Assembly: GCA_001899315.1 (NCBI GenBank)
Contig: MOYA01000001.1
Coordinates: 2,334,132 to 2,369,764, forward strand
Source of the DNA: Candidatus Obscuribacter phosphatis
GTDB lineage: Bacteria; Cyanobacteriota; Vampirovibrionia; Obscuribacterales; Obscuribacteraceae
Direction: 5' to 3'
DNA: 35,633 bases
Notes under the pieces: model-generated
The model's input: the letters and a program-made list of their open reading frames with translations, nothing else
Told to the model about the DNA's origin: nothing
Databases searched by the model: none
Shown here: one piece after another, positions 23,637-32,092 of the stretch
How the letters are laid out: the number at the start of each line of letters is the position of its first letter
Numbering within the stretch: position 1 is the first letter of the stretch
Translations under genes and position numbers: made by a program

Positions 23637-23665
23637 TTGACCCTTTTGATAGCTTTTGGTAGTAT
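23637..23665 (+). promoter_or_regulatory. Promoter of rplU-rpmA and downstream genes
   Basis: TTGACC (23637-23642) and TAGTAT (23660-23665) are separated by 17 bases. The -35 matches five of six consensus positions and the -10 four of six. Transcription would start near 23672, giving a leader of about 110 bases before rplU. Confidence 0.6.
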
Positions 23666-24197: not shown

Positions 24198-24449
24198 GTG
24201 GCACATAAGAAGGGCGCCGGCTCGACAAGAAACGGAAGAGACAGCCAACCCAAACGTCTAGGCGTTAAAGTCTACGGCGGTGAGCCGGTTATCCCCGGTT
24301 GCATCATCGTCAGACAAAGAGGCACCAAGATTCATCCCGGCAAAAACGTAGGCAGAGGTTCAGACGACTCTCTCTTTGCAATTGCCGAAGGTGTGGTCAG
24401 ATTTGAAATGTCCCGAGGACGCAAGTTAGTCAGTGTCTACCCAGTTTAA
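24198..24449 (+). CDS. rpmA: 50S ribosomal protein L27
   Basis: This 83-residue protein is L27, whose N-terminal tail reaches the peptidyl-transferase centre. It begins [16 protein letters not shown], without the cleavable N-terminal extension found in Firmicutes. The GTG start at 24198 has GAGGAG 8-10 bases upstream. [18 protein letters not shown] is typical. The stop lies 14 codons-worth of overlap-free sequence short of nothing else but murE, whose start is 17 bases inside this gene. Confidence 0.97.
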
Positions 24450-26046
24450 GCTTGGGCAGCCGTCCGAAAAGACACTGAAAGAAATAATTGCAGAGCTGCT
24501 TTGTGAAAACGAGGCAGCTTTGCCGTCTGCTTTCACTCTTTACGACCGTCATTCAGAAGGCGAGAGCCTGGCTGAAAAAATAAAGATAGCCGGTCTCGCT
24601 TACGACTCTCGCCATGTAGAAAAAGACTTCGCCTTCTTCTCAATCGAAGGACAAAAACAAGACGGCAACGCCTTTATCAATCAAGCTATCGAAAAAGGTG
24701 CCTCGCTCATCGTTTCGCAAAAGAAAAGCGGTCCCTATGCCGTGCCTCTCTTGGTCGTACCCGACGTGAGAGTGTTCATGGGACAGATGGCCAATATATT
24801 TTTTGAAAAACCAAGCGAAAAACTGAGCTTGCTTGGCGTCACCGGTACAAACGGCAAGACCACCACCACTCATCTGATTGAGCATATCTTCAACTTTAAT
24901 GGTCGCCAGTGCGGACTGATAGGCACTCTCGGTGCACGCATGCCTTTGGCAGGCAAAACAGAGTACCTCGATGTGCACCACACCACGCCCCAAGCTGCCG
25001 ACTTACAAGCCCTGCTTTATACGATGGCTAAAGAAGGCGTGCAATATGTAGCAATGGAAGTAAGCTCTCATGCTCTCTTTCTCAAGCGGGTGGAAGGCAC
25101 CGAGTTTTCGGTGGGCTGCCTGACCAATATCACCCAAGATCACCTGGACTTTCATAAAACAATGGAGCACTACTACCGCTCCAAAGCCATCTTGTTCGAG
25201 ATGCTCGCCGGCAAAGACCAAGCCTGCGCGGTTATCAATCTAGATGACAAATATGCCGAGCCTTTCCTCAATATATGCCAAGAGAACAAGACCAAGATTT
25301 TGAGCTACGGCAAAGACACTAAAGCCAGCATTCATCCTATTTCTTTCCAGTTTGATGCCAGGGGTACACAAATCGAGCTTGCCACTCCAGATGGTGTCAT
25401 AAGCTTTAGCACCAAACTGACTGGAGAGTTCAATCTATACAATGTCATGGCCGCCATGGCTATTTCGCTCTCTCAAGGAATCAGCAAAGAAGCCGTAGCC
25501 GAAGCCTTGAAAGATTTTGCCGGAGTTGCTGGGCGCTTTGAAGTGGTGCAGCCGCCTTTCAAAATTGGTGAAGGCAGAGCCGTGCCCCTTTGTATAGTCG
25601 ATTACGCCCATACACCTGATGGTCTCGATAATGTTTTGAAAGCCGCCCGCGCTCTGGTCAAAGAACCGGGTAAGTTAATTGCCGTCTTTGGCTGCGGCGG
25701 CGATAGAGATAGCTCAAAGCGACCGCAAATGGGTGCTATCGCCGAAGAGCTAGCCGACAAACTAGTGGTCACTTCAGATAATCCCCGTTCTGAAGACCCG
25801 CAGCAGATAATTGCCGATATTTTGGCCGGCATCAAACGTTTGAAAGACGTGACGGTGGAAGTAGATAGACAAAGAGCCATTCTTGAAGCAGTCAAGAGCG
25901 CCGGCTCAAGCGATGTGGTTGTGGTAGCAGGCAAAGGGCATGAAACCTACCAAATTCTCAAAGATCGCACTATCGATTTTGACGACCGCATCGAAGTAGC
26001 TAATGCACTGAAAGAGCGCGAAGATATAATAAGTATCGAAAGATAG
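24433..26046 (+). CDS. murE: UDP-MurNAc-L-Ala-D-Glu:meso-diaminopimelate ligase
   Basis: This 537-residue cytoplasmic ligase adds meso-diaminopimelate to the peptidoglycan precursor with ATP. The ATP loop is GTNGKTT (K142), followed by [27 protein letters not shown] and YYRSKAILF with the expected carbamoylated lysine. The DNPR motif at 449-452 marks diaminopimelate rather than lysine specificity. The GTG at 24433 lies inside rpmA (17-base overlap, different frame), with GAGG 14 bases upstream, so translation is probably coupled. The N-terminus is about 30 residues longer than in E. coli MurE. Its place behind rplU-rpmA, where obgE is often found, is unusual. Confidence 0.95.
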
Positions 26047-26081: not shown

Positions 26082-26912
26082 GTGGCAATCAGCTTTCACA
26101 TTACGTCAGTCCGAGAAGGCACGATTTTCAATGTCATGCAGTTTCTCAGCCTTGAGAAAGTGACCGGCGTCTTGACCGTGCGCTTCGGCAGACAATTGCC
26201 CGAAGTGACCATTTACTTTGTGGCAGGCTCAATAACCACAGCCGAATTCGGCTCCATAGTCGGCGACTCTGTTCTTGACATGCTTTTGTGTCAGGAATTT
26301 GCCGTCAAGGAAGTCTCTTTCGCCCCCGGTCGCATCAATCAAGTTAACGAGCAAGCCATTATTGTCAGGTCGACCAATTTGGCCTCGGTCATGCTCAATG
26401 TCTCAAAAGATGTGGACAAATGCGAATCCCGTCCGCTTATCTATGGGCTCTTGCCCATCAATACCCAAAAGGGTGAAAGTGCTCCTTCGCTCTTGCATAT
26501 TCTCAATGACTTTGCCCCCTGGCAGGAATCTCTCAGTTCGCTGCCACGCTCAGATAAAGACAAAAAGGCACCCTTGCCTCAATGCGTGCTTTTGCACCGC
26601 GCCCTGGCCAAAGGCTATATTAGTTATCAGCGCCCACTTATATCTATAAAGGCTCTCAAGCCTCTGCTCGAGATTTTAGGCGCTTTATCAGATAAAGAAA
26701 CAAACAACTTGCGCGGCTATCTGCGTTCGCTCCTGCCGCACCCGCGTGCCACTCATCTTTCTATCGAACGTTTCTATGCCTTTGCCTCGGCTATCGAATC
26801 AATTGCGCAAAGACGCTCTCCCGAAGTAGGAGACCGTGCTAGAAGAGCTATTCATATGCTTATTCAAAATGCCACTAAAGTGCAGGACGGATCTGAGGCT
26901 GCCAATGCATGA
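26082..26912 (+). CDS. DUF4388-domain protein
   Basis: This 276-residue soluble protein has an N-terminal DUF4388 (PATAN-like) domain in about residues 5-110: FNVMQFLSLEKVTGVLTVRFG, then a VTIYFVAGSITTAEFG strand pair and a helical part. Such domains occur in signalling proteins of Cyanobacteria, Deltaproteobacteria and relatives, often beside response regulators or gliding-motility genes; their ligand is unknown. The C-terminal 150 residues are helical and not recognised. It starts with GTG behind AAAGG. The stop overlaps the ATG of the deacetylase as ATGA, so the two proteins are probably made together. Confidence 0.7.
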   Translation: MAISFHITSVREGTIFNVMQFLSLEKVTGVLTVRFGRQLPEVTIYFVAGSITTAEFGSIVGDSVLDMLLCQEFAVKEVSFAPGRINQVNEQAIIVRSTNLASVMLNVSKDVDKCESRPLIYGLLPINTQKGESAPSLLHILNDFAPWQESLSSLPRSDKDKKAPLPQCVLLHRALAKGYISYQRPLISIKALKPLLEILGALSDKETNNLRGYLRSLLPHPRATHLSIERFYAFASAIESIAQRRSPEVGDRARRAIHMLIQNATKVQDGSEAANA

Positions 26913-27700
26913 GCGAAGAAAAAGTCGATCGCAAAAAAGAGCGGGAAAAGCTTAAAGAAGATCCACGAGATTTTGAACATCGCCTTCATAATGCCAAAAT
27001 GTCCTTTCTCAACTATATGGCTAGGAAGGTCTTGCCGGGCGGGTTTTGGTCGGGAAACAGGCTGCAGCCTGGAGCCGGTGCGGCAGCCCCGGAGCCCGAT
27101 ACCGCCAATGGTGGCACACGCCCCAGTCATCTTGACGCTAATGGAAAAATCAGACTGCATCTCACCTTTGATGATGGACCAGACCCTGGCTCTACCCCCG
27201 ACTTGCTCAATTTACTAGCCAAAAGAGGGGTGATTGCTACTTTCTTTTTTATTGGTGCCAATGCCAAAAAACATGCCGCCCTGGTCAAAGAAGTGCAAAA
27301 TGCCGGACAGATAATCGGCAATCACAGCATGAATCATCTATTTTTGCCGGTGCAAGCGACAAAGAAAATTGAAAGCGAAATAGACGAAGCCAATCAGGTC
27401 TTGGAAGAGATAACCGGTGAGCGTCCCAGTCTTTTTCGCCCGCCTTTTGGATTAATCGACAAGCGCGGGGCCGAGCTTTTGGCGGCACGTCGCATGTCAC
27501 CGGTCTATTGGGGAGCGGTAGCCGACGATTGGCAGTACATCGGAGAGGAAGCGGTAACCAGGCGTATTCTCAAACAGTTGCCCCGGGAAGAATTAATCGT
27601 GCTGCACGAAGGACCGCATCTGGGTGAGCAAACAGTCAAGGCTGCCGCCCTCTTGATTGACCGCTGCCTCGAATTAGGCTTTTCATTTGATAGTATTTAA
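26909..27700 (+). CDS. Polysaccharide deacetylase (NodB domain)
   Basis: This 263-residue protein has a NodB homology domain from about residue 80. Motif 1 TFDDGPDPGS, motif 2 HSMNH (GNHSMNHLF), motif 3 FRPPFG, motif 4 DDWQY and motif 5 VLHEG are present; LHEG replaces the more usual LHD. Family members remove acetyl groups from peptidoglycan, chitin-like polymers or other glycans. The N-terminal 50 residues are highly charged (KKEREKLKED) and show no signal peptide or clear membrane anchor, so it appears cytoplasmic or held by a partner, which is odd for a wall-modifying enzyme. It is translationally coupled to the DUF4388 gene. Confidence 0.85.
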   Translation: MSEEKVDRKKEREKLKEDPRDFEHRLHNAKMSFLNYMARKVLPGGFWSGNRLQPGAGAAAPEPDTANGGTRPSHLDANGKIRLHLTFDDGPDPGSTPDLLNLLAKRGVIATFFFIGANAKKHAALVKEVQNAGQIIGNHSMNHLFLPVQATKKIESEIDEANQVLEEITGERPSLFRPPFGLIDKRGAELLAARRMSPVYWGAVADDWQYIGEEAVTRRILKQLPREELIVLHEGPHLGEQTVKAAALLIDRCLELGFSFDSI

Positions 27701-27735
27701 CGGTTATCTTTCTTCTCAAGGCAAAGGAAATAGCA

Positions 27736-29058
27736 GTGCTTGACTTCAAACCACCAAAAGACACGCCCTTTCTTTTCTGGTGGGCAAAAATAAATCTACC
27801 TCTGCACATGAAGTTCAGTATGAGAGGCACCTCGATCAAAATTATGGACGGGGCTTTGGAGCGCTTTGCCAAGCTGAAGGGCAAACATACTATGGTCTGC
27901 CCGAACCATTCCAACCGGCATGATCCCCAAATCATGTTTAGCTTTGGCGTCAAGGCCGGTGAGTATTTCAACTTTGTCGCCGCCCGCGAAGTCTTTGACT
28001 ATGACCATGGCGTTAATGGCTGGTGGCTGCAACACTTGGGCACCTATTCAGTGGTGCGGGGCGCAGCCGACCGTGAATCATTCAAAACCACCAGGCGCAT
28101 TCTCTCTGAAGGTCAGAAGAAACTGGTGCTCTTCCCTGAAGGAGAGATATCGAGGCAGAACGACACAATCATGCCTTTAGAATCTGGCGCAGCCCAGCTG
28201 TCATTTTGGGCTATGGCCGATCTGGAAAAGAAAGCGCAAGCAGCAAAGAAAGAGGACAAAAAAGACGATAAGAAAGAAGGAAAGACTGAAAATAGTGCAG
28301 TTGCCGTTGATGAACTAGGTTTTGAGCCTGTGTACATTCAACCAATGGCTTTCAAATACACCTACCCCGAAGACATTGCCAGTGAACTGAGGGGCTCACT
28401 CAAGACTCTAGAGATGCGTCTCGGGCTGAAAGTCGATGAGGAAGGCAGTTTCCAGACGCGCATCAAGAGACTGGCTGAGACTTTGCTTAGCACGCTTGAA
28501 AGAGAATACAATTTCAAGCCTAAAGATGCAGTCACTATGAACGACAGAGTCAAACAGCTGCGCGTGCATATTTTGCAAAATCTAGCCGGCATCTTGAGTG
28601 TCGAACTAGAAGCGGGTGGGCGCGAACTAGAATGGGTGAGAGTGCTGCGCAATAAGCTCGACGACTTCATCTACGAAGACGAAAAAGATATGTCTGAGTA
28701 TGAGAAGGAAGTACATGCCGAGAAAGAAAAGACATACAAGACCTATTACAAAGACCTCAATCGCGTCGTCAATTTCATTTCTATCTATGACGGTTATGTC
28801 AGCGAACGCTCAACTCAAGAAAGAATCGCTGAAGTGCTTGAGCGCATGGAAACCGAGGTCTTAGGCGGCGAGAGCCCACCCAAGGGCGCCCGCGAAGTGA
28901 TGATCGATGTGGGCGAAGCAATAAACTTAGGTGACTATTGGAGCCTCTACAAGAAGAACAAAAAAGAAGCAGTAAACCAAGTCACCGACCGCCTCTTTTC
29001 CGAGATTTCGCGCATGCTTGCCGAAATGGATGCCAAACGAAAAGTGCGCTATCTCTAG
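27736..29058 (+). CDS. PlsC-type acyltransferase with a long C-terminal extension
   Basis: This 440-residue protein has the lysophosphatidic-acid-type acyltransferase motifs: NHSNRHD (N57 to D63, H58 and D63 being catalytic) and LFPEGE (132-137). These enzymes transfer an acyl chain to a lysophospholipid or similar acceptor at the membrane. A Lys/Glu/Asp-rich insert lies at about 164-187. After the IQPMAFKY strand (about 201-208), about 230 residues of strongly charged helical sequence follow that are not part of the usual domain. GTG start at 27736 with AAAGGA just upstream. It lies 35 bases after the deacetylase and likely belongs to the same envelope operon. The substrate is not determined. 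Confidence 0.75.
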   Translation: MLDFKPPKDTPFLFWWAKINLPLHMKFSMRGTSIKIMDGALERFAKLKGKHTMVCPNHSNRHDPQIMFSFGVKAGEYFNFVAAREVFDYDHGVNGWWLQHLGTYSVVRGAADRESFKTTRRILSEGQKKLVLFPEGEISRQNDTIMPLESGAAQLSFWAMADLEKKAQAAKKEDKKDDKKEGKTENSAVAVDELGFEPVYIQPMAFKYTYPEDIASELRGSLKTLEMRLGLKVDEEGSFQTRIKRLAETLLSTLEREYNFKPKDAVTMNDRVKQLRVHILQNLAGILSVELEAGGRELEWVRVLRNKLDDFIYEDEKDMSEYEKEVHAEKEKTYKTYYKDLNRVVNFISIYDGYVSERSTQERIAEVLERMETEVLGGESPPKGAREVMIDVGEAINLGDYWSLYKKNKKEAVNQVTDRLFSEISRMLAEMDAKRKVRYL

Positions 29059-29118: not shown

Positions 29119-29147
29119 TTAGCAACCGCCGGTTTCGATGGTATATT
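29119..29147 (+). promoter_or_regulatory. Promoter of the flavoprotein gene
   Basis: TTAGCA (29119-29124) and TATATT (29142-29147) are separated by 17 bases. The predicted start near 29154 gives a short leader of about 24 bases. It would uncouple the flavoprotein from the envelope run upstream. Confidence 0.55.
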
Positions 29148-29177: not shown

Positions 29178-30617
29178 ATGCAAAAACTCGCCTTGATTGG
29201 ACTTGGAGCCTCCGGTTTATTCGCCCTGAAAGAACTGGCCGGAGCCGACGTAGAAGTACATGTTTTCGATGTCGGACCGCAATATGACAAACGTTATGCC
29301 TGCCCAATCGATCAGGGCAAGTTAGAAGTTTGCCCGCCCAAGGCTTGCTCTTATTGCGCGCCTGGTCAGTCGGCCGGCAGCTGGAACGATTTTAAAGTTA
29401 TCTTGTCGGCCTCGCCGGTCATTGGCGGCAGGCTGTATGACCTCATCGGCGAAAACGAGTTGCAGAAAAGACTAGATGTGGTGCGCGCCACCATTCTCGA
29501 TCACGCCCCCTGCCAGATTCCAGTGGTCAAGCCTAACGAAGAAGATCTGAGCTGGATCAAAAAGAAAGCTACTTTAGCTGGCATGACCTATCACTATCAA
29601 GAGCTTTTGCATTGCGGTTCTGACAATGCCCCGGCCATCAACACAAGCATACTGAACGAAATCAAAAGCAAAGGTCAGAACATCTGTTTTCACTGGGACA
29701 GCAAGGTGCTCTCAGTCTCTCGTCGCGGTGAAAAATTTGCCGTGCGCCACGATCGCTACCGCAAACCCGGTGAAGAGAAAGAAGAAATCTTCGACTATTG
29801 CGTCATTTCAGTTGGTCGCGGCGGCGCCCACTGGCTCACCCAGCAAGAATTCTACAAAGCCCTCGATATCTATCCCGGACAAGTGGACATCGGTATTCGT
29901 GTAGAAACATCTTGCTACTTCACCGAAGAAGTCGATAAACGCTTCTACGAACCCAAGCTCTATTACAAGAGCAGACATTCAGGCGATGTAGTGCGCAACT
30001 TCTGTTCTAATCCGAAAGGCTTTGTCACGCCTGAAAACCACCGCGAATATGTGCTGGTGAACGGTCATTCTAAGATGTATGAAAAGTCCGAGAACAATAA
30101 CTTTGCCGTATTGGTAAGCAAGACTTTCACCAGACCGTTTAAAGACCCGCAAATGTATTCTCAGACCATCGCCAAAATAGTAAACATGCTGGCCGGTGGC
30201 GGACCTCTAGTGCAGAGACTAGGGGACCTAAAAGCCGGCAGGCGCACCAAGTCGCTCGACAACAATCTGATCAAGCCTACACTGGAAGCAGAATGCGGCG
30301 ACATCTCGCTTGCTTATCCCCACCGCATTCTGCAAGGCATTGTTGAGTATCTGGAAGCCCTGGACAAAATCTGCCCTGGTGTCGCCGGTGAACACACCCT
30401 GCTCTATGCCCCCGAATGCAAGAGCTACCCTGACTCTATTTCGGTGAGCAAGAATATGGAAACCAATATCTCCAACTTGTTCATCATAGGCGATTCCAGT
30501 TCTTGGACCCGAGGCGTAGGACAAGCAGCCACAAGCGGACTCTTAGCCGGAGAAGGCGTCAAGAAAAAGCTGCTCTCGCCGCAGCCGGCGTCTGCACCGC
30601 ATTCGGTACCAGTCTAA
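29178..30617 (+). CDS. FAD-dependent oxidoreductase (COG2509-like)
   Basis: This 479-residue protein begins with a dinucleotide-binding fold (LIGLGASGLFALKEL, G8-x-G10-x2-G13) and ends with a second FAD-contacting motif (LFIIGDSSSWTRGVGQAATSG). It resembles the uncharacterised FAD-dependent dehydrogenases of COG2509. A Cys-rich block near the N-terminus (C42, C52, C57, C60, then PGQSAGSWND) stands where related proteins have a Cys cluster before a GAGAFSDGK-like segment; it may bind a metal or take part in redox chemistry (inference). Substrate unknown. The start follows AGAGGGATAGG. It converges on the TPR gene, with 14 bases between the stops. Confidence 0.7.
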   Translation: MQKLALIGLGASGLFALKELAGADVEVHVFDVGPQYDKRYACPIDQGKLEVCPPKACSYCAPGQSAGSWNDFKVILSASPVIGGRLYDLIGENELQKRLDVVRATILDHAPCQIPVVKPNEEDLSWIKKKATLAGMTYHYQELLHCGSDNAPAINTSILNEIKSKGQNICFHWDSKVLSVSRRGEKFAVRHDRYRKPGEEKEEIFDYCVISVGRGGAHWLTQQEFYKALDIYPGQVDIGIRVETSCYFTEEVDKRFYEPKLYYKSRHSGDVVRNFCSNPKGFVTPENHREYVLVNGHSKMYEKSENNNFAVLVSKTFTRPFKDPQMYSQTIAKIVNMLAGGGPLVQRLGDLKAGRRTKSLDNNLIKPTLEAECGDISLAYPHRILQGIVEYLEALDKICPGVAGEHTLLYAPECKSYPDSISVSKNMETNISNLFIIGDSSSWTRGVGQAATSGLLAGEGVKKKLLSPQPASAPHSVPV

Positions 30618-30631
30618 GCGGCTTTATCTAA

Positions 30632-32092
30632 TTAATCACGCCAGAGGATTTCGGTGGTTTCGCCGTCGTCATCGTCGGCAATAATCTTGCGCTGTAAGGC
30701 GGCATAGCGGCTCACCAGTTCGGCAACATCGGGATGCTCAGCGCCAAGACTCTTCTCAGATACTTCCAAGCCCCAACGGTATAACCTATCGGCTTCATCA
30801 AAATTCTCTTGTTCTTCAAAGAGCTGGGCAAGACGACGCAGAGCCTTAGCCACGCTTGGATGGTCATGCCCCATCGACTCCTGAATAATTTCGACAGCCC
30901 GCCAATAAAGGGGTTCTGCCTCCGAGAACTTTCCCTGGTCGTGATAGACCTCGGCAAGCGAATTGAGCACCTCAGCCACATGCATATGCTTAGGTCCCCA
31001 GTCTTTCTGTCTCAATTCCAATAGAGTCTTATAGAGAGGCTCAGCCTGGTCATACTTGCACTGCACATGAAAGAGCAGGGCGAGATTACTCAAGGTTTGG
31101 GCAGTGCTGGGATGTTCCAGGCCTAAGGCAGTTTGTCTAATTTTAAGGGCGCGCCAGTGAATTTTCTCAGAGCGAGGGAAATCTCCTAGACTTCTGTAGA
31201 GTTCAGCCTGATAGTTCAAAACAGTAGCAAGAGAAGGATGTTCCGGGCCCCATTCGGCTTCGAAAAGGCGCGCAGCTCTTTCATAGAGCGGCTCGGCCTG
31301 CTCATATTTGCCGCCGGCATGATAAAGCATGGCTAGATTATAGAGACTAGAGCCAATGCTGGGATGCTCAGCGCCGAGAGAGGCTTCTCGTTTAGCCAGC
31401 GCCCTTTGGAAAAGAGGCTCGGCTTGAGAATACTTACCATGCGCCCGCAAGAAATCGGCAAAAGTCTCCAGCATCTCGGCGAGATCAAGGGCTGAACCAT
31501 CGCCTTCAGCATTTTCATAAATAGTAAGGGCACGGCGCAAAAGCGGCTCCACACTAGAGTATCGCCCTTGAGCCCGGTAAACTGCCCCTAAACGAGTCAA
31601 AGCCTGTGCCACTCTTTTGTCTTCACTATAGAGCTTCTCTGAAATCTCCAGAGCCTGCTTGGCGAAAACTTCGGACTCTTTGAGATTGCCCATCTTTCGG
31701 TACATATCAGACATGTTGGCCGAAATATCAATCAAACCTTGTTCTACCCGAGTCTGACCGGGACTATTATCAGACTGAGACTGCACTCTTCGGGCAAGAG
31801 GCGGAGCGGGCGGCTCGCTTGTTCTCTCCGCTTGTACCTTATTAAAAGACTCGGTGGAGCGGCTGCCTGCGGGCTCGTCTTCCTCTTTCACAGCCACAAC
31901 CAGACCTTCGCGCTCGTCCCCTCGCAAAACTGAAAGCTCTCGCCGCGCTTCAATTAGAGCCTTTTGGAAGAGCTTCTCGGCATCCTCCAGCCTCGACATC
32001 TCGAGAGCCCGAGTTCCAGCGGTGAGATAGGTTTCCCAACCTATATTCTCTTTTGTATTCTCTTTTGCGCTCTTATCTTTTGAAGGGTCCAT
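30632..32092 (-). CDS. Kinesin-light-chain-type TPR protein
   Basis: This 486-residue soluble protein carries about eight 42-residue TPR units of the kinesin-light-chain (TPR_10/TPR_12) type from about residue 115 to 465, with recurring LGAEHPS/LGLEHPS/MGHDHPS and AEPLYERA/AEPLFQRA motifs. There is no signal peptide, so it is cytoplasmic, in contrast to the two exported TPR proteins in the window. An N-terminal helical part (about 18-55, also TPR-like) and a Pro/Ser/Arg linker (about 75-112) precede it. It ends in an acidic tail (DDDDGETTE). Such repeats serve protein-protein binding; the partner is unknown. No strong ribosome-binding site is seen at the ATG at 32092. Confidence 0.75.
   Translation of the reverse strand: MDPSKDKSAKENTKENIGWETYLTAGTRALEMSRLEDAEKLFQKALIEARRELSVLRGDEREGLVVAVKEEDEPAGSRSTESFNKVQAERTSEPPAPPLARRVQSQSDNSPGQTRVEQGLIDISANMSDMYRKMGNLKESEVFAKQALEISEKLYSEDKRVAQALTRLGAVYRAQGRYSSVEPLLRRALTIYENAEGDGSALDLAEMLETFADFLRAHGKYSQAEPLFQRALAKREASLGAEHPSIGSSLYNLAMLYHAGGKYEQAEPLYERAARLFEAEWGPEHPSLATVLNYQAELYRSLGDFPRSEKIHWRALKIRQTALGLEHPSTAQTLSNLALLFHVQCKYDQAEPLYKTLLELRQKDWGPKHMHVAEVLNSLAEVYHDQGKFSEAEPLYWRAVEIIQESMGHDHPSVAKALRRLAQLFEEQENFDEADRLYRWGLEVSEKSLGAEHPDVAELVSRYAALQRKIIADDDDGETTEILWRD

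Follow-up and report, generated by a model that had tools for sequence, protein, structure and literature searches.

Examination of a 35,633-nucleotide stretch of the Candidatus Obscuribacter phosphatis genome (contig MOYA01000001.1), referred to here as the window, revealed three consecutive genes on the forward strand. Open reading frame calls and Pfam assigned these to a DUF4388 (PatA-N-like) protein (26082..26912; 276 residues, GTG start), a NodB/CE4-type deacetylase (26909..27700; 263 residues, ATG start), and a PlsC/LPLAT-type acyltransferase (27736..29058; 440 residues, GTG start), the same three families that an earlier sequence-only reading had named for positions 26082-29058. The closest named record was a Candidatus Obscuribacterales metagenome assembly with 89% identity over the deacetylase. 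Comparison across the order showed that the conserved unit at this locus is the deacetylase-acyltransferase pair, which is usually found within a locus of the order murE-(DUF4388)-FAD, where FAD stands for a gene encoding a flavin adenine dinucleotide (FAD)-dependent protein.

The DUF4388 and deacetylase genes share the bases ATGA at 26909-26912, and the acyltransferase gene starts 35 bases past the deacetylase stop. The shared bases had been taken in the sequence-only reading as a sign of translational coupling. Among the 17 loci having both genes, the window included, the exact 4-base overlap was found only in the window and its nearest relative, L110, with all starts in this comparison being mechanical calls; the remaining loci had other short overlaps or gaps of up to about 1 kb.

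Sequence features of the three proteins

The deacetylase matched Polysacc_deac_1 (PF01522) with 110.9 bits against a cut-off of 23.1, which places it in the CE4 / NodB-homology family, and it was the sole PF01522 match in the window genome, the sequence of which is 95% complete. Seven residues (D88, D89, H139, H143, R177, D207, and H233) do not vary among the 19 aligned orthologues, and these we take to be the CE4 motifs. Equally invariant in the 19 are P43, G45, and W47 of an N-terminal P-x-G-x-W segment. Among PDB entries, its best relatives carry chitin deacetylase and peptidoglycan deacetylase annotations, and the NCBIfam scores lay below every equivalog cut-off, with PdaB (TIGR02764) at 117.5 versus 237.4 and NodB (TIGR04243) at 107.4 versus 240. 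Compared to the peptidoglycan deacetylases PdaB, PgdA, and PdaC, the window deacetylase is alike in its Pfam family, in having PdaB as its best NCBIfam score, and in having PgdA/PdaC-type solved relatives, but it is unlike them in scoring below the PdaB cut-off, in lacking an N-terminal hydrophobic peak, and in its P-x-G-x-W segment.

The deacetylase had been described in the sequence-only reading as having no export signal, with the proviso that a corrected start might reveal one. The open frame is 267 codons long and extends only 4 codons beyond the called start, and therefore no earlier start can supply a signal peptide. The highest 19-residue hydropathy within the first 110 residues was 1.39 among 19 orthologues, a set that omits the partial L129 deacetylase and L140, the latter being the window again. 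In 5 further orthologues, hydropathy before the first motif was at most 1.34. A hidden export signal was thus not found by the open-frame limit or by hydropathy in the 24 orthologues examined of 41, and the earlier description was borne out.

The acyltransferase matched PF01553 (42 bits; cut-off 23), as did 19 of 19 aligned orthologues, and is accordingly a member of the LPLAT / PlsC group. The NH-x4-D and FPEGE[ILV]S blocks are kept in all 19. The protein consists of an N-terminal acyltransferase domain and a C-terminal region of approximately 240 residues, which recurs in paralogues across the acyltransferase family and for which no consistent Pfam match was found among the orthologues. When solved structures were searched with the alignment profile, the best E was only 0.22. 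The PF01553 domain and the NH-x4-D and FPEG blocks are shared with the PlsC 1-acylglycerol-3-phosphate acyltransferases, but the window family has FPEGE[ILV]S where PlsC proper has the FPEGTR form, and it carries the extra C-terminal region. The window protein had no NCBIfam match at E up to 1, with neither TIGR00530 nor an FPEGTR-type block found in it, and at the same E neither Pfam nor NCBIfam linked it to a NodA family. Other acyltransferases of this type are also encoded in the genome; one is short and carries FPEGKIS, and another, a paralogue with FPEGEIY, occupies a frame of 463 codons.

The remaining protein matched DUF4388 (PF14332) with 25.5 bits against a cut-off of 25, and over residues 15-66 only. 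The DUF4388 name nonetheless stands, because 22 of 22 aligned orthologues matched the family at E up to 0.1, and because profile comparison with the 18 other DUF4388 domains of the genome returned a probability of 95.7 over 68 columns. DUF4388 corresponds to the PATAN domain, and by the profile comparison the protein is like PatA, PixE, and PixG. It is unlike them in that only the 68 columns align, in that no receiver (REC) domain was matched in any of the 22 orthologues at E up to 0.1, and in having its own conserved C-terminal region of no recognised kind. A search of solved structures with the DUF4388 alignment profile gave a best E of only 0.1. AlphaFold2 single-sequence models were poor (mean pLDDT 35.0 and 45.9) and were not used, nor was a Foldseek search with the poor DUF4388 model, which returned no match at E up to 0.001. 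The DUF4388 protein is better conserved than either enzyme, with a mean pairwise identity of 0.66 versus 0.43 and 0.54 over 16 loci.

The genome holds 19 DUF4388 matches in total, of which the window protein is the weakest, and 17 of these are in open frames whose length ranges from 452 to 926 codons; these matches suggest a large PatA-N-type signalling set. Further copies of the DUF4388 orthologue were seen in other genomes, among them a second one in G012 (L135:8062-8913), which lies away from murE and has 42% identity to the window protein, and two more in G049.

Distribution of the genes in the Obscuribacterales

Alignments of the three proteins served as queries against 53 genomes of the order, and we tabulated the positions of the matches, such that the gaps given here lie between the ends of profile matches rather than the ends of genes. 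Left out of the counts were DUF4388 matches weaker than approximately 1e-100 (second copies in G012, G049, and G052), deacetylase matches weaker than 1e-60 (paralogues in G009, G012, and G050, and the sole matches of G024, G025, and G026), and acyltransferase matches weaker than approximately 1e-150 (paralogues). One acyltransferase fragment below the search threshold, 48 residues at a contig end in G019, was added by hand. The acyltransferase of G059 is also cut by a contig end, and the deacetylase of G021 begins at one.

A deacetylase orthologue was present in 41 of the 53 genomes, and an acyltransferase orthologue was found on the same contig in every one of the 41, counting the truncated copies of G019 and G059, an association beyond what chance would give. 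No genome among the 53 had an acyltransferase orthologue (E up to approximately 1e-150) without a deacetylase orthologue. The two genes lie within 215 bp of each other on the same strand in 37 of the 41, and in L123 and L127 they have 8 bases in common; the exceptions are G009, G014, and G044, having gaps of 1.4 to 4.2 kb, and G046, in which the deacetylase gene is inverted. Three genes in the G044 insert (L184:5002-8214) matched ATP-grasp-type Pfam families, with one of the matches falling below its cut-off.

The DUF4388 orthologue, present in 44 of the 53 genomes, is less strictly associated. It co-occurs with the deacetylase in 40 genomes and shares a contig with it in 38, in 31 of which the two lie within 290 bp on the same strand. 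The two genomes with the genes on different contigs are G005, where the murE-DUF4388-FAD locus was read without the pair and the pair lies together on another, short contig, and G021, where the gene following DUF4388 is a different, convergent gene. The pair is present in G015, in which DUF4388 was not found. Conversely, DUF4388 occurs without a deacetylase orthologue in four genomes (G007, G024, G025, and G026), each with the order murE-DUF4388-FAD (L115, L131, L133, and L183). Because DUF4388 occurs without the deacetylase (four genomes), the pair without DUF4388 (one), and the two on different contigs (two), the unit is the pair and not the triad. The three-gene arrangement put forward in the sequence-only reading is conserved in other genomes, and to that extent the proposal was sustained, but the triad as an inseparable module was rejected on this distribution, which does not tie DUF4388 to the pair. 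DUF4388 is a frequent neighbour and not an obligate part.

In most loci read, the rplU, murE, and FAD genes surround the deacetylase-acyltransferase pair. In four genomes without a deacetylase orthologue, G010, G023, G064, and G065, murE is directly followed by the FAD gene; in G004 and G051 murE was found with no FAD gene within the stretch read, and murE was not found in G045 or G057. This distribution suggests that the murE-(DUF4388)-FAD locus may be older than the pair. At the level of the phylum, a sample of 292 genomes was searched with the DUF4388 alignment, and only the window's own genome matched at E up to 1e-12.

A possible route to an acylated amino-sugar glycolipid

With a confidence of 0.4, we consider the pair to be best read as two enzymes that deacetylate and then acylate an amino-sugar glycolipid at the cytoplasmic face. 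The sequential deacetylation and acylation proposed in the sequence-only reading is thereby partly supported. The deacetylase and acyltransferase would constitute a two-enzyme cassette that operates either in the cytoplasm or on the inner side of the inner membrane. The CE4 enzyme would first deacetylate an amino sugar at its N-acetyl group, probably while the sugar is part of a lipid-anchored precursor; the PlsC-type enzyme would then add a fatty acyl chain to the same or the next intermediate, and an acylated amino-sugar glycolipid destined for the envelope would result. The DUF4388 protein would be a neighbour that belongs to the murE-DUF4388-FAD arrangement, with a possible influence on expression or placement. 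We infer the shared substrate, the order of the reactions, whether acylation is on N or O, the lipid, the membrane location, and the role of DUF4388.

That the two genes stay together, that no export signal is seen, and that extra acyltransferases occur all suggest activity at the cytoplasmic face on a lipid or a lipid-linked sugar. In G018, G019, and G022, DUF4388 and the deacetylase are separated by an additional, shorter acyltransferase gene, scanned with Pfam in its G019 copy and with NCBIfam in its G018 copy, and this second acyltransferase gene itself points to a lipid substrate. Together with two precedents, these features led us to choose an amino-sugar glycolipid that is first deacetylated and then acylated. 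In Nod-factor synthesis, according to excerpts of PMC5380657, NodB removes the acetyl group of the non-reducing sugar, and the amino group set free is then acylated by NodA; in the Thermus glycolipid GL1, according to excerpts of PMC9636437, an acyl group is carried on the amino group of glucosamine. The proposed route would follow the logic of rhizobial NodB and then NodA with an acyltransferase from another family. The likeness lies in a CE4 family deacetylase acting before an acyltransferase of the freed amino group, as those excerpts of PMC5380657 describe; the differences are that the window partner is of the PlsC/LPLAT type and not NodA, and that the deacetylase falls well short of the NodB equivalog cut-off. 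No NodC was recognised among the 22 window proteins scanned, and no genome-wide NodC search was made.

A number of observations weigh against this route. The missing N-terminal hydrophobic peak is not peculiar to the orthologues, since among four deacetylase paralogues those of G009 and G012 had hydropathy peaks of 1.84 and 1.61, but those of G024 and G025 reached only 1.18 and 0.86 and are also without one. The genomes are related, and therefore the 41 of 41 co-occurrence does not represent 41 independent events. The same two-part acyltransferase family is found in genomes without the deacetylase, with the best match, 2.3e-120, in G064. Correlation of tree distances over 91 locus pairs gave a partial r given murE of 0.40 for the deacetylase with the acyltransferase, the lowest of six; the others were 0.76 for the deacetylase with the FAD protein, 0.61 for DUF4388 with the deacetylase and likewise with the acyltransferase, 0.50 for DUF4388 with the FAD protein, and 0.48 for the acyltransferase with the FAD protein. 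No glycosyltransferase was recognised among the 22 window proteins scanned, the neighbours in relatives not having been scanned systematically. Finally, PlsC-type enzymes usually form O-esters on glycerol lipids, and N-acylation would therefore be unusual. In its most specific form, the proposal would be that Obscuribacteraceae have a NodB-plus-PlsC-type cassette, a parallel invention of the NodB-NodA step, with which they make an N-acylated amino-sugar glycolipid not described so far at the inner face of the inner membrane, with DUF4388 tying production to the murE locus; we regard this full version as quite unlikely.

Two genes this close may alternatively share an operon and no substrate, with a lysophospholipid-type acyltransferase and an unrelated cytoplasmic deacetylase riding in the murE locus. 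This would account for the rplU, murE, and FAD genes around the pair in most loci, for the many paralogues of the acyltransferase family, some in genomes without the deacetylase, and for the failure of the tree-distance correlations to single out the pair. It sits less well with G005, where the pair is kept together off the murE-DUF4388-FAD locus, with G015, where it is kept without DUF4388, and with an acyltransferase orthologue never being seen without a deacetylase orthologue (0 of 41). We consider this explanation somewhat unlikely.

Less likely again is that the deacetylase acts on peptidoglycan, either on the cytoplasmic lipid I/II precursors, with murE as the link, or on the sacculus after non-classical exit. 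The deacetylase orthologues lack an export signal by hydropathy wherever examined (24 of 41), and their constant partner is an acyltransferase. Moreover, where no deacetylase orthologue is present, murE is followed by DUF4388-FAD (four genomes) or by FAD (four more). Such a role would nevertheless agree with murE preceding the module, with the enzyme being the only PF01522 match in the 95% complete genome sequence, and with its best solved or named relatives being chitin, peptidoglycan, and sporulation deacetylases.

The DUF4388 protein may act as a scaffold or regulator, and PATAN proteins that act on the pilus or division machinery offer a model for a three-protein complex in which DUF4388 would serve as scaffold or switch. 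In excerpts of PMC7690835, PixE is hypothesised to bind PilB1, and in excerpts of PMC7380572, PatA interacted with ZipN and SepF in two-hybrid assays. The higher conservation of DUF4388 relative to both enzymes and its presence on one contig with the deacetylase in 38 of the 40 genomes with both would fit such a complex, but the genomes in which DUF4388 and the pair occur apart or on different contigs make it very improbable. Replacement of LpxC by the deacetylase in lipid A synthesis, which would share the logic of cytoplasmic deacetylation and acylation, was rejected because 38 of 40 genomes carry LpxC, the window genome among them with its copy at another place, and 39 of 40 carry LpxB, in line with the lipid A genes reported in Melainabacteria in excerpts of PMC4040986.

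Within open-licence PMC text, we found no paper on a cytoplasmic deacetylase-acyltransferase glycolipid system, none joining Obscuribacterales with acyltransferase, and none on FPEGTRS with phosphate and arginine. The envelope of this uncultured, non-photosynthetic sister group of the cyanobacteria has been inferred from gene content (excerpts of PMC4040986), and the glycolipid route, if true, would provide a testable lipid prediction for the group. It would also represent a second natural route for deacetylating and then acylating an amino sugar, and would give a substrate class to test for PlsC-type enzymes with the uncharacterised C-terminal region. If the pair shares only an operon, the two genes would be ordinary neighbours in the murE locus.

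Neighbouring genes and related arrangements

Directly upstream of the module is a gene for a murE-type Mur ligase (24433..26046, forward strand), which is context and is not counted in the proposed mechanism. The FAD-dependent protein (PF21688) is encoded after the module at 29178..30617 on the forward strand, and its gene follows murE too where the pair is absent. With a mean pairwise identity of 0.84 over 14 loci, it ranks first in conservation among the five locus genes compared; murE has a mean of 0.56 (16 loci). Beyond the FAD gene, on the opposite strand, lies a gene for a TPR protein (30632-32092), whose best NCBIfam match was the FxSxx-COOH system TPR protein at 136.2 bits versus a cut-off of 300. 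A relative of this TPR protein directly adjoins the FAD gene in eight other loci (L109, L110, L111, L114, L118, L120, L122, and L125).

Promoter-like sites, recognised by consensus match only, were found on the forward strand upstream of rplU (23637..23665) and upstream of the FAD gene (29119..29147); 11 such sites were found versus 6.6 expected in shuffles. The window had no Rfam match at gathering scores.

Short CE4 deacetylases of 202 to 212 residues in five Bacteroidetes loci (L039, L040, L042, L048, and L049) are like the window enzyme in their N-terminal hydropathy, which is at most 1.11, and, in all except L049, in having P-x-x-x-W before the first motif. Their loci are unlike that of the window, with no acyltransferase of the window's kinds found in the five, and with the preceding gene encoding a TMEM260-like O-mannosyltransferase (L040 and L049) or an MFS transporter (L039). 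In L040:362-5110 and L049:1729-5531, the gene for a CE4 deacetylase without an N-terminal hydrophobic peak directly follows that for the TMEM260-like protein O-mannosyltransferase, and L048 resembles this arrangement by eye.

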